From assembly GCA_913030835.1 (NCBI GenBank), contig CAJWDP010000003.1:1-64000 (forward strand): 64,000 nt of DNA, in the 5' to 3' direction. Shown here in pieces: positions 48,209-62,158 of this stretch (within the stretch, counting starts at the first letter, position 1; every line of letters begins with the position of its first letter). Position numbers and translations under genes: made by a program. The notes under the pieces were generated by a model that was given only the letters and a program-made list of their open reading frames with translations, ran no database searches and was not told the DNA's origin. This stretch comes from an uncultured Flavobacteriales bacterium (GTDB lineage Bacteria; Bacteroidota; Bacteroidia; Flavobacteriales_D; Parvicellaceae).

Positions 48209-51200
48209 TTACATATTTCGTCGATATTGTCCCCCCACTTGAAACAAGGCATCCGTTATCTGTCCGAGTGAACAATATTTCGTTGCTTCCATGAGCTCTT
48301 CGAAAATGTTTTGGTTCTGGGTTGCAGCAGTTTTCACCCGATCCAAAGCATGTCTGGATTTATCTGAATTCACTTTTTGGAGGTCCTCAAGCATGTTAAT
48401 CTGGTATTCTTTTTCTTCCGTATTAGCTCGGATGACTTCCTGGGGAATAATGGTTGGTGACCCCTTGGAGCTAAGGAAAGTATTCACCCCAATGATCGGG
48501 TATTCTCCTGTGTGTTTTAAACTTTCATAGTACAAAGACTCCTCTTGAATCTTGCTTCTCTGATACATGGTTTCCATTGCTCCAAGTACCCCTCCTCGCT
48601 CAGAAATACGCTCAAACTCCAACAAAACGGCTTCTTCAACCAAATCCGTTAGTTCCTCAATAATAAAGGAACCTTGTAAAGGGTTTTCATTTTTTGCCAA
48701 TCCCAGCTCCCGGTTGATGATCAATTGGATCGCCATCGCCCTTCGAACAGATTCTTCTGTTGGAGTTGTTATCGCCTCATCGTAAGCATTCGTATGAAGA
48801 GAGTTACAATTGTCGTAAATTGCATACAAGGCCTGCAGCGTTGTTCTAATATCGTTAAAATCAATTTCTTGAGCGTGCAACGACCTACCCGATGTCTGAA
48901 TATGGTATTTGAGCATTTGCGCCCGCTTATCAGCACCGTATTTTTTTGACAATGCTTTGGCCCATATTCTCCTTGCCACCCTTCCAATCACTGCATACTC
49001 AGGGTCGATACCGTTGGAGAAAAAGAATGACAAATTGGGACCAAACTTATTGATGTCCATTCCACGACTCAGATAATACTCGACGTAAGTGAATCCATTG
49101 GCAAGTGTAAATGCAAGCTGCGAAATCGGATTTGAACCGGCTTCTGCAATGTGGTATCCTGAAATTGACACCGAATAAAAGTTGCGCACCTCATTGGCTA
49201 TGAAATACTCCTGAACATCACCCATCAATCTCAGGGCAAATTCTGTCGAGAAGATGCACGTATTCTGTGCCTGATCCTCCTTCAAAATATCAGCTTGAAC
49301 AGTACCTCTTACTATGGAAAGGGTTTCTTTCTTGATCTTATTGTAAGCTTCAGGTTTTAGTACCTGATCACCCGTCAAACCTAACAGCATCAGACCAAGT
49401 CCGTCGTTTCCTTCGGGCAAATCCCCTTGATATTTAGGACGACTGAGTCCATTATTGTCGTATTTTTCTTTGAAGGCGTTTTCCACCTCCTCCTGCAATC
49501 CATTTTCTTTAATGTATTTTTCACAGTTCTGATCGATGGCCGCATTCATGAAAAAACCAAGTAGCATGGGCGCAGGGCCATTTATTGTCATACTCACCGA
49601 TGTCGCCTTATTTGATAGGTCAAAACCGGAATAGAGTTTTTTTGCGTCATCCAGACAACAGATCGAAACACCTGCGTTACCAATCTTCCCATAAATATCC
49701 GGACGAATTGCAGGATCATTACCATATAAGGTAACAGAATCAAATGCTGTTGATAATCGTTTTGCGGGCATTCCCAGACTTACATAGTGAAATCGTTTAT
49801 TGGTTCTTTCAGGACCACCTTCACCTGCAAACATTCTTGTGGGGTCCTCTCCTTCCCTCTTGAAGGGGAACAAGCCAGAGGTAAACGGAAAATCTCCAGG
49901 AACATTCTCTTGCAACATCCATCTTAATCTATCCCCCCATCCTGAATATTTCGGTAACACCACTTTAGGAATATCCAATTGCGATAGAGACTTGGTATGG
50001 GTTTCCACCGAAAGCTCCCTACCTCTCACTTCGTATTTATAGATCGGATCCTTATACCTTGCTACTTTTTCATCCCAGGCTTCAAGTAATTTCCAATTTC
50101 TCTGATCAAGATCAAGCTTAACATCATCGAATCTTTCACTCAATCCCGAAATTATTTCATCACCATCACCGGGAACATTTTTAATTACCTGGATAGCGCT
50201 TTGGAGACCGTACAATTGATCTGCTACTTCACATTGGTTCTTTACCCAATCATCATATGCTCTATTGTTTTCGCTTATTTCAGCAAGATATCTGGTCCTT
50301 GCCGGAGGTATTACGTAAATCTTCTCCGACATTTCTTTCGTAATCTCGAAAGAGGAATTGAGGTCCGAGCTGGTCTTCTCGACCATTTTATCCATTAACG
50401 CCTTGTACAATGAGTTCATACCAGGGTCATTGAACTGAGATGCAATGGTTCCAAAAACCGGAATTTCATCGTCAGAGGTATCCCATAAATTGTGATTTCT
50501 CTTGTACTGTTTTTTCACATCCCTCAATGCGTCAAGTGCTCCCCTCTTATCAAACTTGTTCAATGCAACAATATCAGCAAAATCCAACATGTCTATTTTC
50601 TCCAGCTGAGTCGCTGCACCAAATTCTGGTGTCATTACATACAATGAAACATCTGAGTGATCCAGTATTTCGGTATCTGACTGTCCAATTCCTGAAGTTT
50701 CAAGTACTATCAAATCGAATCCCGCTACTTTCAAAATTTCAATGGCAGATGAAACGTGCTTCGACAGAGCAAGATTAGATTGTCTTGTAGCCAGCGAACG
50801 CATATATATTCTTCCATTATTGATAGCGTTCATTCGAATCCTATCCCCGAGCAAGGCCCCTCCGGTCTTTCGTTTAGAAGGATCGACTGATACTATGGCC
50901 ATTGTTTTGTCCTCGAAATCAGTAATAAATCGGCGTACCAATTCATCCACTAATGAAGATTTCCCTGCACCTCCCGTTCCGGTTATACCCAAAACCGGTG
51001 TGTCCATCTGATTTGAAAGCTTTTCGATTTCAGCTAATTTTTCCCGGTGTTCATCGGGATAGTTTTCGGCAGCTGAGATCATTCTTCCTATTGTTCCGTA
51101 GTCAGTTCTACTCAAAGAACTTATTTCTGCATCGATCTTTTTTCCCGTTGGAAAATCACATTTTTCAACAAGATCATTGATCATTCCTTGAAGTCCCATA

Positions 51201-51586
51201 TCCCGACCATCATCGGGATGATATATACGAGCAATTCCATAGTCATGAAGCTCTTTGATTTCACTGGGAAGAATGGTTCCTCCCCCTCCACCAAAAATTT
51301 TTATATGGTCTGCATTTTTCTCTTTCAGCAGGTCATACATGTACTTAAAATACTCCATGTGCCCACCCTGATAAGAAGTCAGCGCGATCGCTTGCGCATC
51401 TTCTTGGATGGAACAATTCACGATCTCTTCAACACTTCGATCATGCCCCAGATGAATGACCTCACAACCCGTAGATTGTATGATTCTTCGCATGATATTG
51501 ATCGCTGCGTCGTGACCATCAAAAAGAGATGCTGCAGTTACAATTCGTATCTTATTGTTGGGTACGTAGGGAGTAATTTTTTCCAT
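48209..51586 (-). CDS. icmF: Fused acyl-CoA mutase IcmF (B12 domain, G-protein chaperone, mutase)
   Basis: A 1125-residue adenosylcobalamin enzyme with the IcmF order. An N-terminal B12-binding domain (about 8-145) has [11 protein letters not shown] MeaB-type GTPase follows, with P-loop [12 protein letters not shown] near 200-212 and the NKFD box. The mutase barrel (about 545-1125) ends with [20 protein letters not shown]. IcmF interconverts isobutyryl- and n-butyryl-CoA, sometimes longer acyl-CoAs. The FPFKREGE region carries Phe where methylmalonyl-CoA mutase has Tyr, favouring IcmF over that enzyme. The start at 51586 ([12 protein letters not shown]) is preferred; 51613 adds nine residues. 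Confidence 0.9.
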
Positions 51587-51805
51587 AATATGTTGTTCCC
51601 GAAAAGCGAACAAATATAGTTATTTCGAAGGAAAATTATCAATTAGAAATACCCGAACAAACCGATACATTAAATTCAGCAAAATTTGCGTTTGTACTGT
51701 ATTGTGCTGAAGCTTCTATTAATGTGGGGTTTGGCTTCGATCTAGACTCAAAGATTTCAATTTCTTGTTTATCAGCTATTTGCGAAATATATTGTAAATT
51801 ACGGC

Positions 51806-54190
51806 ATGACACGTTCTATTTCTATCCTAGCCATTGCAGTATTCAGCTGCACCCAATATTTTGCTCAATGTCCATCTGGTATGGCAGAGTTAATCATTGA
51901 AATTGTACCTGATTCCTATCCATCGGAGATATCTTGGGATGTCACCTCATCGGGGGGAATTATAGCATCAGGAGCATCGGTCGGAGATACCATTTGTATC
52001 GACACTACGCAGTGCAATACGTTTACGATCTATGACTCTTATGGCGATGGGATATGCTGCGGATACGGAATCGGTTATTACAACCTGTACATTGACGGCA
52101 GTCTAGAGGCAACCGGAGGTGAATACGACAACTCGGAAAGCACCAGCTTTTTTTGTCCGCCGGGAAGTTCTTGTGAAAACCCAATTCTCATTGCGGAGGG
52201 CACACATTCAGCCGCCGTGCTTCCGGAAACATGGTATGAATGGTCTCCCGATTCGGCCGGGATTTATGAGATCACCACTTGTTTAGGTGCTACTTGTGAT
52301 ACAAGAATTTGGGTTTACGATCTGTGCTCCGGACTTGTATTCGATAGCGGGAACACAGGTACGATTTTTTACAACGATGACAATCCAACCTGCGGTGTAC
52401 AAGCCTATCTTACCGGAATTTTTGATCCTGCAAAGACCTATTACATTCGAATCGGTCAAGTGGGTACCTCATGTTCCTCCTTACCCATTAGCTGGTCCTT
52501 GAATTATCTATCTGAGGTAATCGGCTGCATGGATCCAAGCGCTTGTAATTATAACCCGCTGGCTACAGCAAGTGATACCTGTTATTATCTGGGAGACAGT
52601 CTGTGTCCAGACGGACCCGACCTTTGGCTACTCGAGGATGTACTAAGGAACTCCATGTTCGTTGATAATTTGAACAATACGGATCCCTGCACGATCAATG
52701 AAGGTTGCTTGCGAGGTTTTGGTGACAGAGAGATTATTCGTTTTACAACCCACATTAAAAATATTGGGAATTCAGACTATTATATTGGAACCCCTTCTGC
52801 AAATCCTAGTCAATTTGTTTGGGATAACTGCCATAGCCACAATCACTATGTTGGTTATGCCGAGTACATTTTGTACGATGAAGACAATTTCTCAACTCCA
52901 ATTGGTTTTAAAAATGGGTTCTGTGTAATGGACCTGGAATGTGACAGCGGTGGAGCCATGACATACGGATGTGGAAATATGGGTATCTCCTACGATTGTG
53001 GAGATTACTATGGTTCTTACCTCGATTGTCAGTGGATTGACATCACAGAAGTAGATACAGGTAGGTATGTACTCGTTACTAGAGTGAACTGGGACCAGTC
53101 TCCGGACGCCCTGGGACAATACGAAACAAGCTATGAGAACAATTGGGGACAAGCATGTTTTCATTTGGATAGAGACCCTATTACTGGCGCCCCTTCCATA
53201 ACGTTGGATACTGCCTGTTCACCTTACCTAGACTGTGCCGGTATTCCCTATGGTTCAACATTTGTAGATTGCAATGGAGTGTGCAATGGGACTGCTTTGA
53301 TGGGTGACATAAATAACGATCTCACACAATCGAATGCCGATGCGATTCAATATGTAGACGATATTTTGGGGAACAGTATCTCGGCGAATAATTGCAACGA
53401 CCTGAATGATGATGGTGATATCTCTGTTTACGATGCTTCATTGATCAATAGCTGCTACCTCTTTGGGACCAATCATGCTCATGATGGTGGCGGTTCACAT
53501 GATCATTGTGTTCTTCCTCTCAATGTACACAACATGTACGACACAGCTTACCTGAGTATTATTGGATACAACATCAGTGCAGGTTACATAGACATTGGTA
53601 TTAAAAATCCCAGTTCGAAAATAGTAGCTTACGAATTTACTATGGAAGGAGTAACCATAGGAAGTGTTGATAATTTGCAATCTCCTTCTCAATATCCAAT
53701 TACACCAAGTTATGCCTTAGGTGGAACTAAAGTTATCGGAATCTCTTATCTGGATTCTGTGATAGATAAATCGAATACCTATCAACCTTTATGCAGAATT
53801 AATATCTTCAATGTAACCAGTTCTATGATTTGTATTGAGTCAATTGTTGATGTGGTGGATGAATACTATCACACGGTTGAAAATGAAATTGAAGGTCCCT
53901 GCATTTTTGTAACCGGTATTTCAGAAAATAAGGAGTTTGCCACCATGCAAATTCAACCCAATCCATCTTCAAACGAAGCAACCATTCAATTGAATGCTAC
54001 CCTAAACTTAAACGGGAGCTTGGAAGTTTTTGATTTTCTCGGAAAAAGAGTTTTTCGGAAAACCCTTAATACAACTAATGAAACCATTGAGGCTATTGAT
54101 GTTTCCAGCTGGAATACAGGGGTTTACCACGTTGTTTTCACTTCAGAAGGCGGCACAATTCAACGGCCGTTACAGGTTGTCCACGAGTAA
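51806..54190 (+). CDS. T9SS-secreted lysyl oxidase domain protein
   Basis: A 794-residue secreted multidomain protein. Signal peptide about 1-20; an N-terminal beta domain (about 21-115); a GCMDPSACNYNP repeat near 245; then a lysyl oxidase domain (about 270-460). That domain holds the copper ligands in WDNCHSHNH (H343, H345, H347), Lys369 in FKNGFC and Tyr402 in DYYGSYLDCQW. These match the human LOX copper histidines and the LTQ cofactor residues K320 and Y355. Dockerin/EF-hand-like Asp loops (GDINNDL, DLNDDGDIS; about 495-550) follow. A type A T9SS sorting domain (about 715-794, starting IQPNPSSNEA) ends it. It likely oxidises primary amines, such as protein lysines, outside the cell. Substrate unknown. 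Confidence 0.85.
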   Translation: MTRSISILAIAVFSCTQYFAQCPSGMAELIIEIVPDSYPSEISWDVTSSGGIIASGASVGDTICIDTTQCNTFTIYDSYGDGICCGYGIGYYNLYIDGSLEATGGEYDNSESTSFFCPPGSSCENPILIAEGTHSAAVLPETWYEWSPDSAGIYEITTCLGATCDTRIWVYDLCSGLVFDSGNTGTIFYNDDNPTCGVQAYLTGIFDPAKTYYIRIGQVGTSCSSLPISWSLNYLSEVIGCMDPSACNYNPLATASDTCYYLGDSLCPDGPDLWLLEDVLRNSMFVDNLNNTDPCTINEGCLRGFGDREIIRFTTHIKNIGNSDYYIGTPSANPSQFVWDNCHSHNHYVGYAEYILYDEDNFSTPIGFKNGFCVMDLECDSGGAMTYGCGNMGISYDCGDYYGSYLDCQWIDITEVDTGRYVLVTRVNWDQSPDALGQYETSYENNWGQACFHLDRDPITGAPSITLDTACSPYLDCAGIPYGSTFVDCNGVCNGTALMGDINNDLTQSNADAIQYVDDILGNSISANNCNDLNDDGDISVYDASLINSCYLFGTNHAHDGGGSHDHCVLPLNVHNMYDTAYLSIIGYNISAGYIDIGIKNPSSKIVAYEFTMEGVTIGSVDNLQSPSQYPITPSYALGGTKVIGISYLDSVIDKSNTYQPLCRINIFNVTSSMICIESIVDVVDEYYHTVENEIEGPCIFVTGISENKEFATMQIQPNPSSNEATIQLNATLNLNGSLEVFDFLGKRVFRKTLNTTNETIEAIDVSSWNTGVYHVVFTSEGGTIQRPLQVVHE

Positions 54191-54228: not shown

Positions 54229-54280
54229 CGACTATACATCTACTTCGCTTATATTCAATTAATCAATAAGCACAGTGCGT

Positions 54281-56392: not shown

Positions 56393-59300
56393 TTACAGTG
56401 TTTTTGCTTTACCTCCAGCGGGAATTACTTCGACCCATTTCCCCGGCTGTCTTGCATTAATTGTATTGTCATACATCGCTTCACTCTCTACAGTCGGCAG
56501 ATAAAACTTCCCTTGATATGTCGCATTCAGCTGAATTCTGAATGTTTTGGAGCTGCCTTTACCCAATCGATAATACGTATAAACACGATCATCTCTTATG
56601 TCCTGATAATCAAAACTACCTGGTGAAAATGAGGAGCTAAAGTTCTGCATTCTGGTATTGTGAATCTCCCAGCCTGATGGAAAGATCTGATTCAACGTCA
56701 TCTCTCTTAAATAACCTCTCGTTCCTGGGTTTGATACCTGAACCTGTGCAATAAAGTCAGTCCCTTGCTCCAATACGGTCGGATCAATAGCATTCCCATC
56801 CATATCCACGTACCGAACTGAAATTGCCAGATTATTTGCTGCCGCCGTTTCTTTTCCAGAAACAGGAATCCCTTCCACAACCAGCTTTGCATATAGCATA
56901 CCTGATCCCGTATTATTGACAGTCAGCTTCGATTTCACTCCATTCACTTTAAGTTTATCCTGATACACAGCCACCTGAGTATTTTTGGCTATCGAATTGC
57001 CTCCATTCAGATTATAATTGAATCGCATGGTCTTGTCCGTTGAGCTGATTCCTACGAACTTGCTCATAGCGATCAGAGCATATGCCGTTGTTTGAGTGCT
57101 CATCCAACGATCCTGATTCATAGCTTCAGCAATTTGTTTGGCCAACATGCCTCCTTTCGACTTGTTATTCATCAGTGTTAACACCTCAAGAATCATGGAT
57201 TCATCGCGCAAAGACGATCCAAATGTGTATGAGAGCTCTACATAATCTGGAACCTCAACATCCACATTGTTAATCAATTGGCTGGCCACTTCCGTTCTTC
57301 CTATTAGCACATAAGCTCCGGCTAACCTCCATCTTGCAGTAACTGAAAGCGAATTCAATTCACGCATTCGATTCATTGCACTCAATTCTGGTTTACCAGC
57401 TAAGGCTAAAGTGTACAAACGGTAGGCCTGCGTGAGGTCATTGTTGTGCTTATAACCATGGAAATTCGATTTTCCTGTCACACTTTTCCAGCTTTGTGCT
57501 TTTTTTCTCTGATACGAAATCCAGTTCTTTTTCAGAACACTAGGCAATTTATACCCTTGTTTTTCTGCCTCTATAAGGAAATGCCCTCCGTAATTTGAAC
57601 CCCATTCATTCGATTCCGATTGACCAGGCCAGTAAGCCAATCCTCCCTCGGCAGTCTGAAAAAGTTTCAATCGATCTATTCCTGCTTTGATGTTCTTGTC
57701 AAGCTGGATTTTATAATCGTTGTTCAAATCCATCACATCATCCACAAACAGTTGAGGAAATACAGCTGAAGTTGTTTGTTCAATACATCCATGAGGATAT
57801 CGTATCAAGTATTTCAGTCGTTTGTCCAGATTCATCGGCGGTATAGAGGACAGCTCGATCGTAGCTGAATTCGTACCACCTATTCCACTGAACTCAAATT
57901 CAGGGTCCCATTTTTGGCCGGGCTCAATGATAGCTTCCATCACGTCTGCAACCATTGGATTCGGTGTTCGAACATCCAGCTCTATTTCGTATCTAGCTGT
58001 TTCCTTACCACTTTTTGCAAGAATTTTGACTTTTCCAATTCCGATCTTACTTTTCACTTTAATCGGGAAATTCACTACCTCATCGCCAATTTTATCAAAG
58101 GTTACTGACTTTTTATTCCCATCTGTAAACTCAATCAAATCGTTCGATTCCACTTCTATGGTTACCTTTTTAACATGCTTCTCCATAGCAAAAACATTAA
58201 CAGGTAATTTTAGTTCTTCCTCCGGACCCAGCACTCTTGGCAATGTTCCCAGCACCATCAATGGGCTTCGCACGGGAACTGTTTTATCCGCATGTCCATA
58301 ACGGCGATCCTGACCTGCGACGACCATTACTCTGACCGAACCTACATAATTTGGGATATCAATCTTATGTGTTTTCTTGGCCCCTGCCCTCAAAGTAAAA
58401 GGTCCCACAAATCGTACCATCGGTTTAAAACGATTTGCCTTAGCAGGCTTCTTCTTGCCCCCTTCAGCATCTCCACCAATGGCTAGAAGTTTACTCATTT
58501 CCTGGGTATAAGATCCCATAACCTGATCGTACAAATCCCATGTTTTCACACCCAAAGCTTCCTTTGCATAGAAATGTTTCCATGGCTGCGGTGTTGCAAA
58601 AGAGGTTAAATCCAATAAACCTTCGTCAACAATAGCCAGTGTATAGGTCATCGGTTTCCCTTCCTTCTCTTGAACCGATATGGAAGCGGTTGATTCGGGT
58701 CTCAAAACATCAGGCATCTTAATCACGGGATTGAGATGCGAGTCCGGATTTTCCACATTGATCGGGACAACGCCGTACATTCGGATCGGGAGATCATTTT
58801 CGGTTGCTTTATGCTCTTGCAGCAAAGTCACATGAACAAAAACATTCGGGGCCATTTCGCTTGTTGTTTTGAACTCGAATTTGGTTTCACCCTTTTTAGT
58901 TGCTACCCAATATTTCTCAATTACCTTGGTCCCAGACTCGACACAAACCAGCGCCTTCCCGTTGGTTGGAGATGGAAATGAGACTTTCACTACTTCTCCG
59001 GTCGAATAGGTTTCTTTATCCGTTGAAAAGCTGAGCATTGTTGCATTTTCGTTTTCAGTTCGATTTGCCCGCGCCCAATACGGCCAATCAATGTAGAATA
59101 TTTTCCCTGTGACATGGCCCGAAACAGGATCCTCAACACGAACTAGATACCTGCCCCAAGATGGACGGTTCACTTTGAACTTAAATGAAGCCTTTCCATT
59201 AGAGGAAGAAATCAATTTATTGAAAACAGGCTCGTTGGATTCACTCGATATATAGGACAACAAATCATTGTCATATCTGTCCCACCACCATCTCCAGTTG

Positions 59301-61981
59301 ATTTTATATACTTTAACCTGCAAATTATTTCTTGAAATCGCCTTACCCTCAGCATCTACCGTCGCAATTTCAAATTCATGATCCTCATCCGTAACTAACG
59401 TACCTCTGTATAACGATCCTTTTGGCACTTTAACACCAACATAGGACTCATACGGAGAATATTTGATCGATTTCCAATCCACTGAAAAGTTTCCACCTTC
59501 TTCATAAATTTTGGTTGAAAAATTCGCTGTCAACATACCGGGCGAATTGCTTCCCACATTGATCTGAGGATTGAAGAGTAGCTCTCCATTTTCATCGACT
59601 CGCTCATCTACGATCATCTCCTGGTCCAATGTGATCTTTTTAAGCGGGTCGTCAAACATAAAACCATCAAACTCCGGAAAACTGGTGTATTGCGAGTTTA
59701 CATTTAATGTTACCTGTGCCCTCAAATTCTTCGCAACTGCCCCGTGCAGCCATTTGGTTGATAATTTGATCTCATTATCTCCAGACTGTCGCAGCATATC
59801 TGCGTTAAAGTCCATGTAAATTTTTAGTCGATTGGGCTTAACTGTTTCTACCTTTAAGTATTTGTTGTAAGAACGATTGCCCACCTTTACTTGCGCACGA
59901 TACGTACCTGTAATGTCATTTTGATCGGTGGATGTTCTGAAATCGTAGTGATTCTCTACCCCACCTACTGAAATCTGTTGATCTACAAGCTGACCTTGAG
60001 GGTTGAATAGCTTAAACTTAACCGGATGATTACTGGGTAAAACACGATCTGCATCTTCCAATACAAACGACAGATAGATCGAATCGCCCGGTCTCCAAAC
60101 TCCCCTTTCGGCATAAATGAATCCTTTCACACCCTTTTTCACTTGACTACCACTAACGTCGAATTTTGATAGGGATAATGACTCCCCGTCGCGCATTTTT
60201 AAATATCCTCTCTGGTCACCCTTTTTCGCAATTAGAACAAATGGTTTTTTAGGCAATGATGCCACGCACATACCCTCCTGATCCGTAATTGATGTACCTA
60301 TGATCTGTTGTTGAAAGTCATAAAACTCAACGGTTGCTCCAGCAATACTTTCCGTGCTTTTCAAATCCGATAAGAAAACATGCATTTTTTTGTCCGCACC
60401 GGCCTTTGCAATAATACCTAAGTCGGATGTTAGAATGTTTGTACTCACATTTTTATTCCGGTAGTAGGAAGAGTGACAAGGGTTTTTCCGCTCCCGATAA
60501 TCATAGTCGTAATCATCATAGTAATCGTCGTAATAATAGTCGTCGTAGTAATAGCCACTCACCCAATCCGATTCATTCCAATCGTCGTCTTCCTCTTCAA
60601 TTTCCACAGCCTGCATATCCGAAGCATCGTCTGCTCCACACTGATAAACCGAATAGCTTTGCTTGAATCTCAATTCTATTTGATGTATGGTGCCCGGATC
60701 TTTTCCAACAATATCATTCAAATCCAGAAAAAATCGGTTCCACTCATGCAGGTTCTTTGCTCCATCCTGAGTAAGGTCAACTTTTTTCTTCATGATGTTG
60801 CTAGCAACACGTTTCATCTGATACGAACCGTTGTAATTGTTTACCTGAAGAAATTGTACCATGTTGTCCTCAAAAACTCGGGTAACATAGACATCCACCG
60901 CTTTTAGATTTACGGCTTCAAAAGGGAAAACATAACCATCGTCAGAATTCGGAATAATGGTACCGGAACCGACTAGCCTAATATTTGGCTTGATTCCTTC
61001 AAAAACCAGCTCAATGTCATCTCCTTCTTTCATTTTGTAAGAATTGACATTTTTTATACCGGGACTAACATGAACCACTCTCGTACCCGATACAACTCTG
61101 GGCAAAAAGACTTTTATATCATGTCCCTCGATTTCATAATTGAGGTTGGATAAATTATCAATCGTTATTAATCCATCCAGTTCTTGATTGTTTTTTAGAG
61201 GATCCGAAAAATGTATCAATACATACTGCTCGGGGTTATGCACAATAGACATGTCCACCACCTTAAAGTCTCCCAAAGCAATAACCGGAACAATTTCCTC
61301 TGCAGATCTATCGGCTCCTATTGCCTCCCCGTTGTACAGCAGTTTGACCTCACTTGCCTGTTCCTTTCGCTCTACATGCTGCACCATGAAACGATGCTCA
61401 TTCCCATAGTCATGATTCCAGTTAATACTCAACTCTTTTCCATCCTGAAAAGCAGACAATGTTTTTTGCACATCGGCAGAATCGGTAATATCTGCAGTTA
61501 TAATTCGTCCGGATAGCTGCTGGTCTTTTAAATTGTCTGCACTGTATGTTGACAGACCATCAATAAATAGATTCAGGTCCTGTTCAATGGTTTTAAATTG
61601 AAACGCAAACTCTTCCGCATTGGAAGGAAGATCTTTCACTTTGGACAAGTCTAGATATGCTGTATATTCAATCCCACTTTGCAATAATTCCGAAGGAGTA
61701 AATTCAATCATTCTGGTGGATACAAACTTCGCCTCACCTTCGACTTCAGGAACAAATCTGATCAGATCTTCAATCGGTTCTTCGGCTTCTACAAACTCTT
61801 CAGACACATCTTCTGTTAACATGATGTTGATTGTAGATTCCCTGCTTACTATACCAGAAGTATAAGCAGAAATGTGTTGAGCGAATTCAGGGTTAATGGT
61901 AACCCTTTTCTGTACTTCCTGACTACAACCGAACAAGAGAAGTAAAAAGAAAATTGAGAGTAACTGGATTGAATTTTTCAT
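56393..61981 (-). CDS. Alpha-2-macroglobulin family lipoprotein
   Basis: A very large (1862-residue) bacterial alpha-2-macroglobulin, thought to trap proteases in the periplasm. The start at 61981 gives signal MKNSIQLLSIFFLLLLFGC with the lipid-modified cysteine at 19; the ATG at 62023 adds 14 residues before the signal. Several MG-type beta domains are followed by KGFIYAERGVWRPGDSIY (MG region), the bait-like centre, TYTLAIVDEGLLDLTSF, and a thioester domain with YPHGCIEQTTS (cysteine about residue 1399), so the thioester Cys and Gln are kept. A Tyr/Asp-rich tract at about 472-500 is unusual. No pbpC neighbour is present. Confidence 0.9.
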   Translation of the reverse strand: MKNSIQLLSIFFLLLLFGCSQEVQKRVTINPEFAQHISAYTSGIVSRESTINIMLTEDVSEEFVEAEEPIEDLIRFVPEVEGEAKFVSTRMIEFTPSELLQSGIEYTAYLDLSKVKDLPSNAEEFAFQFKTIEQDLNLFIDGLSTYSADNLKDQQLSGRIITADITDSADVQKTLSAFQDGKELSINWNHDYGNEHRFMVQHVERKEQASEVKLLYNGEAIGADRSAEEIVPVIALGDFKVVDMSIVHNPEQYVLIHFSDPLKNNQELDGLITIDNLSNLNYEIEGHDIKVFLPRVVSGTRVVHVSPGIKNVNSYKMKEGDDIELVFEGIKPNIRLVGSGTIIPNSDDGYVFPFEAVNLKAVDVYVTRVFEDNMVQFLQVNNYNGSYQMKRVASNIMKKKVDLTQDGAKNLHEWNRFFLDLNDIVGKDPGTIHQIELRFKQSYSVYQCGADDASDMQAVEIEEEDDDWNESDWVSGYYYDDYYYDDYYDDYDYDYRERKNPCHSSYYRNKNVSTNILTSDLGIIAKAGADKKMHVFLSDLKSTESIAGATVEFYDFQQQIIGTSITDQEGMCVASLPKKPFVLIAKKGDQRGYLKMRDGESLSLSKFDVSGSQVKKGVKGFIYAERGVWRPGDSIYLSFVLEDADRVLPSNHPVKFKLFNPQGQLVDQQISVGGVENHYDFRTSTDQNDITGTYRAQVKVGNRSYNKYLKVETVKPNRLKIYMDFNADMLRQSGDNEIKLSTKWLHGAVAKNLRAQVTLNVNSQYTSFPEFDGFMFDDPLKKITLDQEMIVDERVDENGELLFNPQINVGSNSPGMLTANFSTKIYEEGGNFSVDWKSIKYSPYESYVGVKVPKGSLYRGTLVTDEDHEFEIATVDAEGKAISRNNLQVKVYKINWRWWWDRYDNDLLSYISSESNEPVFNKLISSSNGKASFKFKVNRPSWGRYLVRVEDPVSGHVTGKIFYIDWPYWARANRTENENATMLSFSTDKETYSTGEVVKVSFPSPTNGKALVCVESGTKVIEKYWVATKKGETKFEFKTTSEMAPNVFVHVTLLQEHKATENDLPIRMYGVVPINVENPDSHLNPVIKMPDVLRPESTASISVQEKEGKPMTYTLAIVDEGLLDLTSFATPQPWKHFYAKEALGVKTWDLYDQVMGSYTQEMSKLLAIGGDAEGGKKKPAKANRFKPMVRFVGPFTLRAGAKKTHKIDIPNYVGSVRVMVVAGQDRRYGHADKTVPVRSPLMVLGTLPRVLGPEEELKLPVNVFAMEKHVKKVTIEVESNDLIEFTDGNKKSVTFDKIGDEVVNFPIKVKSKIGIGKVKILAKSGKETARYEIELDVRTPNPMVADVMEAIIEPGQKWDPEFEFSGIGGTNSATIELSSIPPMNLDKRLKYLIRYPHGCIEQTTSAVFPQLFVDDVMDLNNDYKIQLDKNIKAGIDRLKLFQTAEGGLAYWPGQSESNEWGSNYGGHFLIEAEKQGYKLPSVLKKNWISYQRKKAQSWKSVTGKSNFHGYKHNNDLTQAYRLYTLALAGKPELSAMNRMRELNSLSVTARWRLAGAYVLIGRTEVASQLINNVDVEVPDYVELSYTFGSSLRDESMILEVLTLMNNKSKGGMLAKQIAEAMNQDRWMSTQTTAYALIAMSKFVGISSTDKTMRFNYNLNGGNSIAKNTQVAVYQDKLKVNGVKSKLTVNNTGSGMLYAKLVVEGIPVSGKETAAANNLAISVRYVDMDGNAIDPTVLEQGTDFIAQVQVSNPGTRGYLREMTLNQIFPSGWEIHNTRMQNFSSSFSPGSFDYQDIRDDRVYTYYRLGKGSSKTFRIQLNATYQGKFYLPTVESEAMYDNTINARQPGKWVEVIPAGGKAKTL

Positions 61982-62158
61982 ATCTATAATTTTTGTTCTA
62001 ATGTACTTGATGCTTTCGAACAATGTATTACGCCACTATTATCCGCAAACAAAATTTTATTTTTCGTGAAACAGGAATGTGATTGGAAGAATAAATATAA
62101 TCTTTTGTTCCGTATCCGGTTCCAATAATTGTTTTTACATTTCACGAAAGCAAACTAA

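Follow-up and report, generated by a model that had tools for sequence, protein, structure and literature searches.

A predicted type IX-secreted lysyl oxidase of Bacteroidota joined to a dockerin and a cohesin-fold domain

The window analysed here is a stretch of 64,000 nucleotides from an uncultured Flavobacteriales bacterium. At positions 51806-54190 of its forward strand, an uninterrupted open reading frame running from ATG to stop encodes a protein of 794 residues, identified by Pfam and TIGR04183 matches as a putative lysyl oxidase (LOX) exported by the type IX secretion system (T9SS). The domains given below, all on the same strand, were delimited with the help of a whole-chain AlphaFold2 model built from 50 sequences (mean pLDDT 87, pTM 0.69). 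The N-terminus (about residues 1-21, 51806-51868) resembles a Sec signal, with a hydrophobic helix at residues 2-20, ending FA-QC, found both by inspection and in the model; C22 is invariant and the cut probably lies beside Q21-C22. The beta domain that follows in the model (residues 23-117, 51872-52156) is present in nearly all relatives and has no Pfam match. It carries a DSYGDGICC motif and is duplicated in some relatives. Residues 118-234 (52157-52507) are modeled as a fold of the PPC/collagen-binding type, which VIA-align superposes on ColG s3b (5iku) with a Z score of 12.2 and 2.3 Å over 103 residues. The PPC fold is frequent among secreted proteins and does not imply collagen binding by itself. 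Then come in order the LOX catalytic domain (residues 267-456, 52604-53173), a type I dockerin (residues 496-556, 53291-53473), a cohesin-fold domain (residues 575-704, 53528-53917) and a type A T9SS C-terminal sorting domain, or CTD (residues 717-787, 53954-54166). A previous sequence-only reading of this DNA had recognized the LOX domain and the calcium loops, and had overlooked the PPC-like domain at residues 118-234 and the cohesin-like domain at residues 575-704. A scan for promoters and terminators gave nothing above chance.

The catalytic domain is the best characterized part of this protein. The Pfam profile PF01186 (Lysyl_oxidase) matches residues 305-451 with an E-value of 1.6e-28 and a score of 100.2 bits (cut-off 20.4). 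A phmmer search of the PDB aligns residues 263-428 with human LOXL2 (5ze3, E 5.2e-18). In this alignment the three histidines correspond, the lysine of the LOXL2 GHKASFC motif stands opposite K369 and the tyrosine of CWDMYR opposite Y402. The motifs themselves were located as W339-D-N-C-H343-S-H345-N-H347 (copper motif H343-x-H345-x-H347, 52832-52846), F368-K369-N-G-F-C373 (K369 at 52910-52912), C398-G-D-Y-Y402-G (Y402 at 53009-53011) and D407-C-Q-W-I-D-I-T, K369 and Y402 being the presumed precursors of the lysyl tyrosylquinone (LTQ) cofactor. The sequence-only reading had placed the copper and LTQ residues of a LOX-family domain at exactly these positions, within the KxxFC and CxDxYG...DCQWIDIT blocks, and both a profile search and a superposition on LOXL2 recover the family. 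Residues 267-481 of the model superpose on chain B of 5ze3 with a Z score of 21.0 and 2.9 Å over 192 residues, at 29% identity, and display the LOX fold. The LTQ-forming lysine and tyrosine are 16.6 Å apart in the crystal of the LOXL2 precursor, and LTQ can form only after a rearrangement (PMC9694262), so that a wide gap between K369 and Y402 in a model would refute nothing. H343, H345, H347, K369 and Y402 are invariant in all 50 aligned relatives, which reach down to 39% identity. A strict pattern combining HxHxH, KxGFC and CxDxY is found in 116 of 119 related ORFs; one of the three misses is due to a W-to-F change outside the metal and cofactor residues, and the other two belong to a divergent class described below.

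Export is indicated by the other end of the chain. The type A CTD is recognized by TIGR04183 (E 1.2e-10, 41.2 bits against 23) and by PF18962 at residues 718-785 (E 8.8e-11); in the model, the C-terminus matches generic beta-sandwiches. The same genome encodes the T9SS channel protein SprA (SprA_N, E 7.5e-159) and yields 131 CTD matches, the window gene included. The delivery through the T9SS proposed by the sequence-only reading is thus supported at the sequence level by the CTD itself, by SprA and by some 130 other CTD matches. On these grounds the protein is almost certainly an exported member of the LOX family. In seven loci (L005, L009, L019, L021, L035, L088 and L095), LOX is devoid of the T9SS CTD and ends instead in dockerin-like GDxNxDG repeats, which possibly serve as an alternative signal for sorting or anchoring.

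Between the oxidase and the CTD, the dockerin-like calcium loops noticed earlier prove to be part of a type I dockerin with two conserved 12-residue loops, D501-x-N-x-D...D512 (residues 501-512) and D532-x-N-x-D...D543 (residues 532-543). D501, D512 and D543 are invariant in the 50 sequences, and D532 and D536 nearly so. This domain matches the CelS dockerin (2mte) at the sequence level by phmmer and hmmsearch; Pfam Dockerin_1 is detected in 38 of the 50 relatives at a loose E<=1, with a best value of 1.1e-5, the window protein being below the Pfam cut-off. When the segment 488-708 (221 residues) was folded alone, a confident model was obtained (pLDDT 94.6, pTM 0.90). Its first part matches the double dockerin 8x39 with a Z score of 8.0 over 64 residues. 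For this tandem, the 28 best Foldseek hits are all cohesins (6kgd, E 2.4e-6), and so are the 31 best VIA rows (2jh2, Z 10.7; 6kgf, Z 10.5); within the whole-chain model, residues 575-704 retrieve cohesins at Z scores of about 10. Among the families listed, the cohesin sequence profile PF00963 matches none of the 50 members at E<=1, nor does it match anything in the genome, and the second domain of the tandem is cohesin-like by its predicted fold alone. The tandem is present as a single copy in the genome of the window, in which no other dockerin or cohesin was recognized with Pfam. Among 60 relatives, 11 genomes possess it, that of the window included, and a canonical LOX is carried by exactly these 11.

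The distribution of this architecture was investigated at several levels. Sampling of genomes gave LOX in 136 of 299 for the order and in 4 of 395 for the phylum, both counts including short matches to the divergent class. A scan of the genome contigs returned 441 related stretches, and 79 loci were kept, mostly from MAGs assigned to Flavobacteriales, Crocinitomicaceae, Cryomorphaceae, Saprospiraceae, Chitinophagaceae and other groups, some of these names being doubtful. With profiles built from the 50-sequence alignment, the LOX-dockerin-cohesin arrangement is found in all but three of the 119 ORFs, one exception being clipped by a contig end and two divergent; since these loci were selected as the closest relatives, and the profiles were themselves derived from 50 of them, this constancy holds for the subfamily and not for every Bacteroidota LOX. 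The T9SS tail is absent from 23 of the 119 ORFs, some of which are clipped by contig or locus ends while several end in dockerin-like repeats. In the tree, the window protein groups with L059 and L060, then with L061. The gene is also present in a cultured relative, Phaeodactylibacter luteus (L124). A second, divergent LOX-like class also exists in Bacteroidota, with two complete members (L013 and L014) and three short profile matches (L012, L042 and L043). The complete members combine HGHNH or HNHNH with K-x-GFC, a DIY motif and a T9SS-type tail, and the dockerin-cohesin tandem is absent from their full sequences. The short 128-197 Pfam matches probably stem from this class.

The genomic context of the LOX gene is less informative. 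Its neighbors look like housekeeping genes: upstream, a divergent methylmalonyl/isobutyryl-CoA mutase fusion (48209-51613, reverse strand) and, on the other side, a PIN-PhoH gene starting at 54275. No neighbor is common to more than 7 of the 79 loci in flanks of up to 10 kb. In the order, 10 of 16 loci have the IcmF-like mutase near LOX, a clade-specific synteny for which this enzyme was rejected as a functional partner. The same applies to the S46 peptidase, EamA, CotH and sulfotransferase genes, which accompany only some loci. As no neighbor is conserved across the phylum, synteny indicates no partner protein. In two genomes of family f9 (L057 and L058), the immediate neighbor of LOX encodes a CotH-kinase protein that also contains lamin-tail and T9SS CHU_C domains, a possible modification partner. 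A collagen-like substrate was also considered. Two ORFs with Gly-X-Y repeats (L140 and L141, on genome contigs C83 and C43) are cut by contig ends and could be the two parts of a single gene; this candidate was rejected because the Gly-X-Y tracts of both fragments are free of lysine. One fragment ends in a domain resembling a phage-tail-type chaperone. The suggestion of an extracellular cross-linking system is therefore not sustained in a multi-gene form, given the housekeeping-like surroundings, the lack of a phylum-wide neighbor and the lysine-free Gly-X-Y tracts of the collagen-like ORFs.

Part of this picture has precedents. With animal LOX (human LOX, LOXL2), the window protein shares the fold, the HxHxH copper site, the LTQ lysine and tyrosine and the KxxFC and DCQWxDIT motifs, whereas neither SRCR domains nor a propeptide were detected, dockerin, cohesin-fold and T9SS domains being found instead. 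That LOX-like domains exist in some bacteria was already stated by the sequence-only reading, and rightly: Grau-Bove et al. (2015, PMC4448552) reported prokaryotic LOX, from Actinobacteria, Proteobacteria, archaea and others, and named Bacteroidetes among five bacterial clades. All but three of these prokaryotic proteins consist, according to the same article, of a LOX domain alone with or without a signal peptide or transmembrane region. The window protein belongs to the same family and likewise misses the first histidine of the motif, but the accessible part of that study mentions no multidomain T9SS form. A recombinant archaeal enzyme, HTU-LOX from Haloterrigena turkmenica, is also a prokaryotic LOX and was found to be active with Cu2+, BAPN-sensitive and active on lysine-containing polypeptides (PMC6452851); unlike the window protein it is archaeal, and the accessible sections of that paper report no dockerin, cohesin or T9SS parts. 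Compared with the cellulosomal type I dockerins and cohesins (2mte; CaCohA2, 6kgf; Clostridium perfringens, 2jh2), the tandem has the same two F-hand calcium loops, helices and cohesin fold. It differs from them in that both modules are adjacent in a single oxidase chain, with no scaffoldin and no other genomic copies, and in that its cohesin-fold domain has no Pfam cohesin sequence match. A literature search for LOX combined with T9SS or dockerin, with most subscription journals outside its coverage, retrieved only unrelated papers. The catalytic domain is thus an ordinary LOX and not new, while the multidomain architecture appears to be undescribed. The LOX-dockerin-cohesin arrangement is common to more than 100 related bacterial proteins.

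On the basis of these results, a secreted copper- and LTQ-dependent LOX of a widespread Bacteroidota subfamily is the explanation favored here as a whole, with a probability of roughly 0.6. The protein would be taken across the inner membrane by Sec, fold with disulfides and bind Cu2+, after which LTQ would form from K369 and Y402. It would then pass through the T9SS, lose its CTD and be either retained on the surface or released. Its substrates there would be primary amines, most probably those of lysine residues in surface or matrix proteins; they would be oxidized to aldehydes with production of H2O2, and the aldehydes would condense into cross-links. The calcium-loaded dockerin would pack on the cohesin-fold domain of the same or of a neighboring LOX chain, thereby bracing or clustering the enzyme. 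The steps of this scheme are not equally secure. To judge from its residues, the enzyme is very probably catalytically competent, and the odds that protein cross-linking is its main role are about even. Such a role is not implied by membership of the family, as the archaeal LOX has a relaxed specificity towards small amines.

This relaxed specificity, which extends to some antibiotics, makes broad amine oxidation the main rival as to the role. The protein would be in this case an exported amine oxidase serving nutrition or defense, removing the amine nitrogen of polyamines, peptides or amine-bearing antibiotics, with formation of H2O2 but no structural cross-linking. The recombinant archaeal enzyme oxidizes a wide range of primary amines (glycine, taurine, aminoglycosides and polymyxin among them), and roles of this type were proposed in the study that describes it (PMC6452851); the lack of a conserved structural partner gene in the 79 loci points in the same direction. 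In nearly all of the 119 ORFs, however, LOX is part of a long exported polypeptide that also bears adhesion-type domains, a design better suited to large or surface-bound substrates than to free small amines, and this rival is considered rather unlikely. A loss of activity is far less plausible still. Pseudoenzymes normally lose their metal or cofactor residues, whereas the three metal histidines, the lysine and the tyrosine are retained here throughout the 50 diverged relatives. What could suggest a LOX homolog no longer forming LTQ is the alignment of the LOXL2 residues H623, H637 and H652 with D340, E353 and F368 of the window protein, since two histidines supporting LTQ formation in the human enzyme are not conserved: the H623Q and H652Q changes in LOXL2 each cost more than half of the LTQ (PMC9694262). 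The equivalent of H623 is nevertheless also lacking in other bacterial LOX and in those of fungi and Amoebozoa, and its mutation in an animal enzyme reportedly has little effect (PMC4448552).

The function of the tandem raises a separate question. The dockerin and the cohesin-fold domain could form a mere rigid spacer between the catalytic domain and the T9SS anchor with no docking. This would suit a 221-residue segment that is modeled confidently as a single unit (pTM 0.90) and has no Pfam-recognizable cohesin sequence. Near invariance of both calcium loops and the specific resemblance of the second domain to cohesins, which top both fold searches, make this somewhat doubtful. As no other recognizable dockerin or cohesin exists in the genome, the tandem is most naturally read as docking to itself, either inside one chain or from one LOX chain to another, and such a pairing has about an even chance of being real. 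In a bolder version, improbable at this stage, each LOX chain would insert its dockerin into the cohesin-fold domain of the following one, giving a calcium-switched, self-assembling surface cross-linker. Arrays of T9SS-displayed LOX of this kind, equally speculative, would oxidize and weld neighboring surface proteins without any scaffoldin. Self-assembly is compatible with the single tandem per genome and its strict linkage to LOX in the relatives; an in-chain clamp fits the evidence equally well.

Lysyl oxidase hardens the extracellular matrix of animals by cross-linking it. The present family is a large and well conserved bacterial subfamily in which a LOX apparently sent outside the cell is permanently joined to a dockerin-cohesin-like pair. 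It raises the questions of whether bacteria cross-link their own matrix via lysine aldehydes and whether a dockerin-cohesin pair can act, outside the cellulosome, inside one enzyme or between identical ones. A chain-forming LOX would, if true, be a bacterial analog of extracellular-matrix maturation.

In four loci of genus g45 (L044-L047; genomes G141, G121, G105 and G240), two different LOX genes lie 6-9 kb apart on opposite strands. These pairs flank the mutase, together with EamA and aminotransferase genes in three of the four. Further along the window, the 1876-residue product of 56393-62023 (reverse strand) resembles, on inspection, a bacterial alpha-2-macroglobulin: its CIEQ motif is thioester-like, and its signal, LLLFGC, is of the lipoprotein type.
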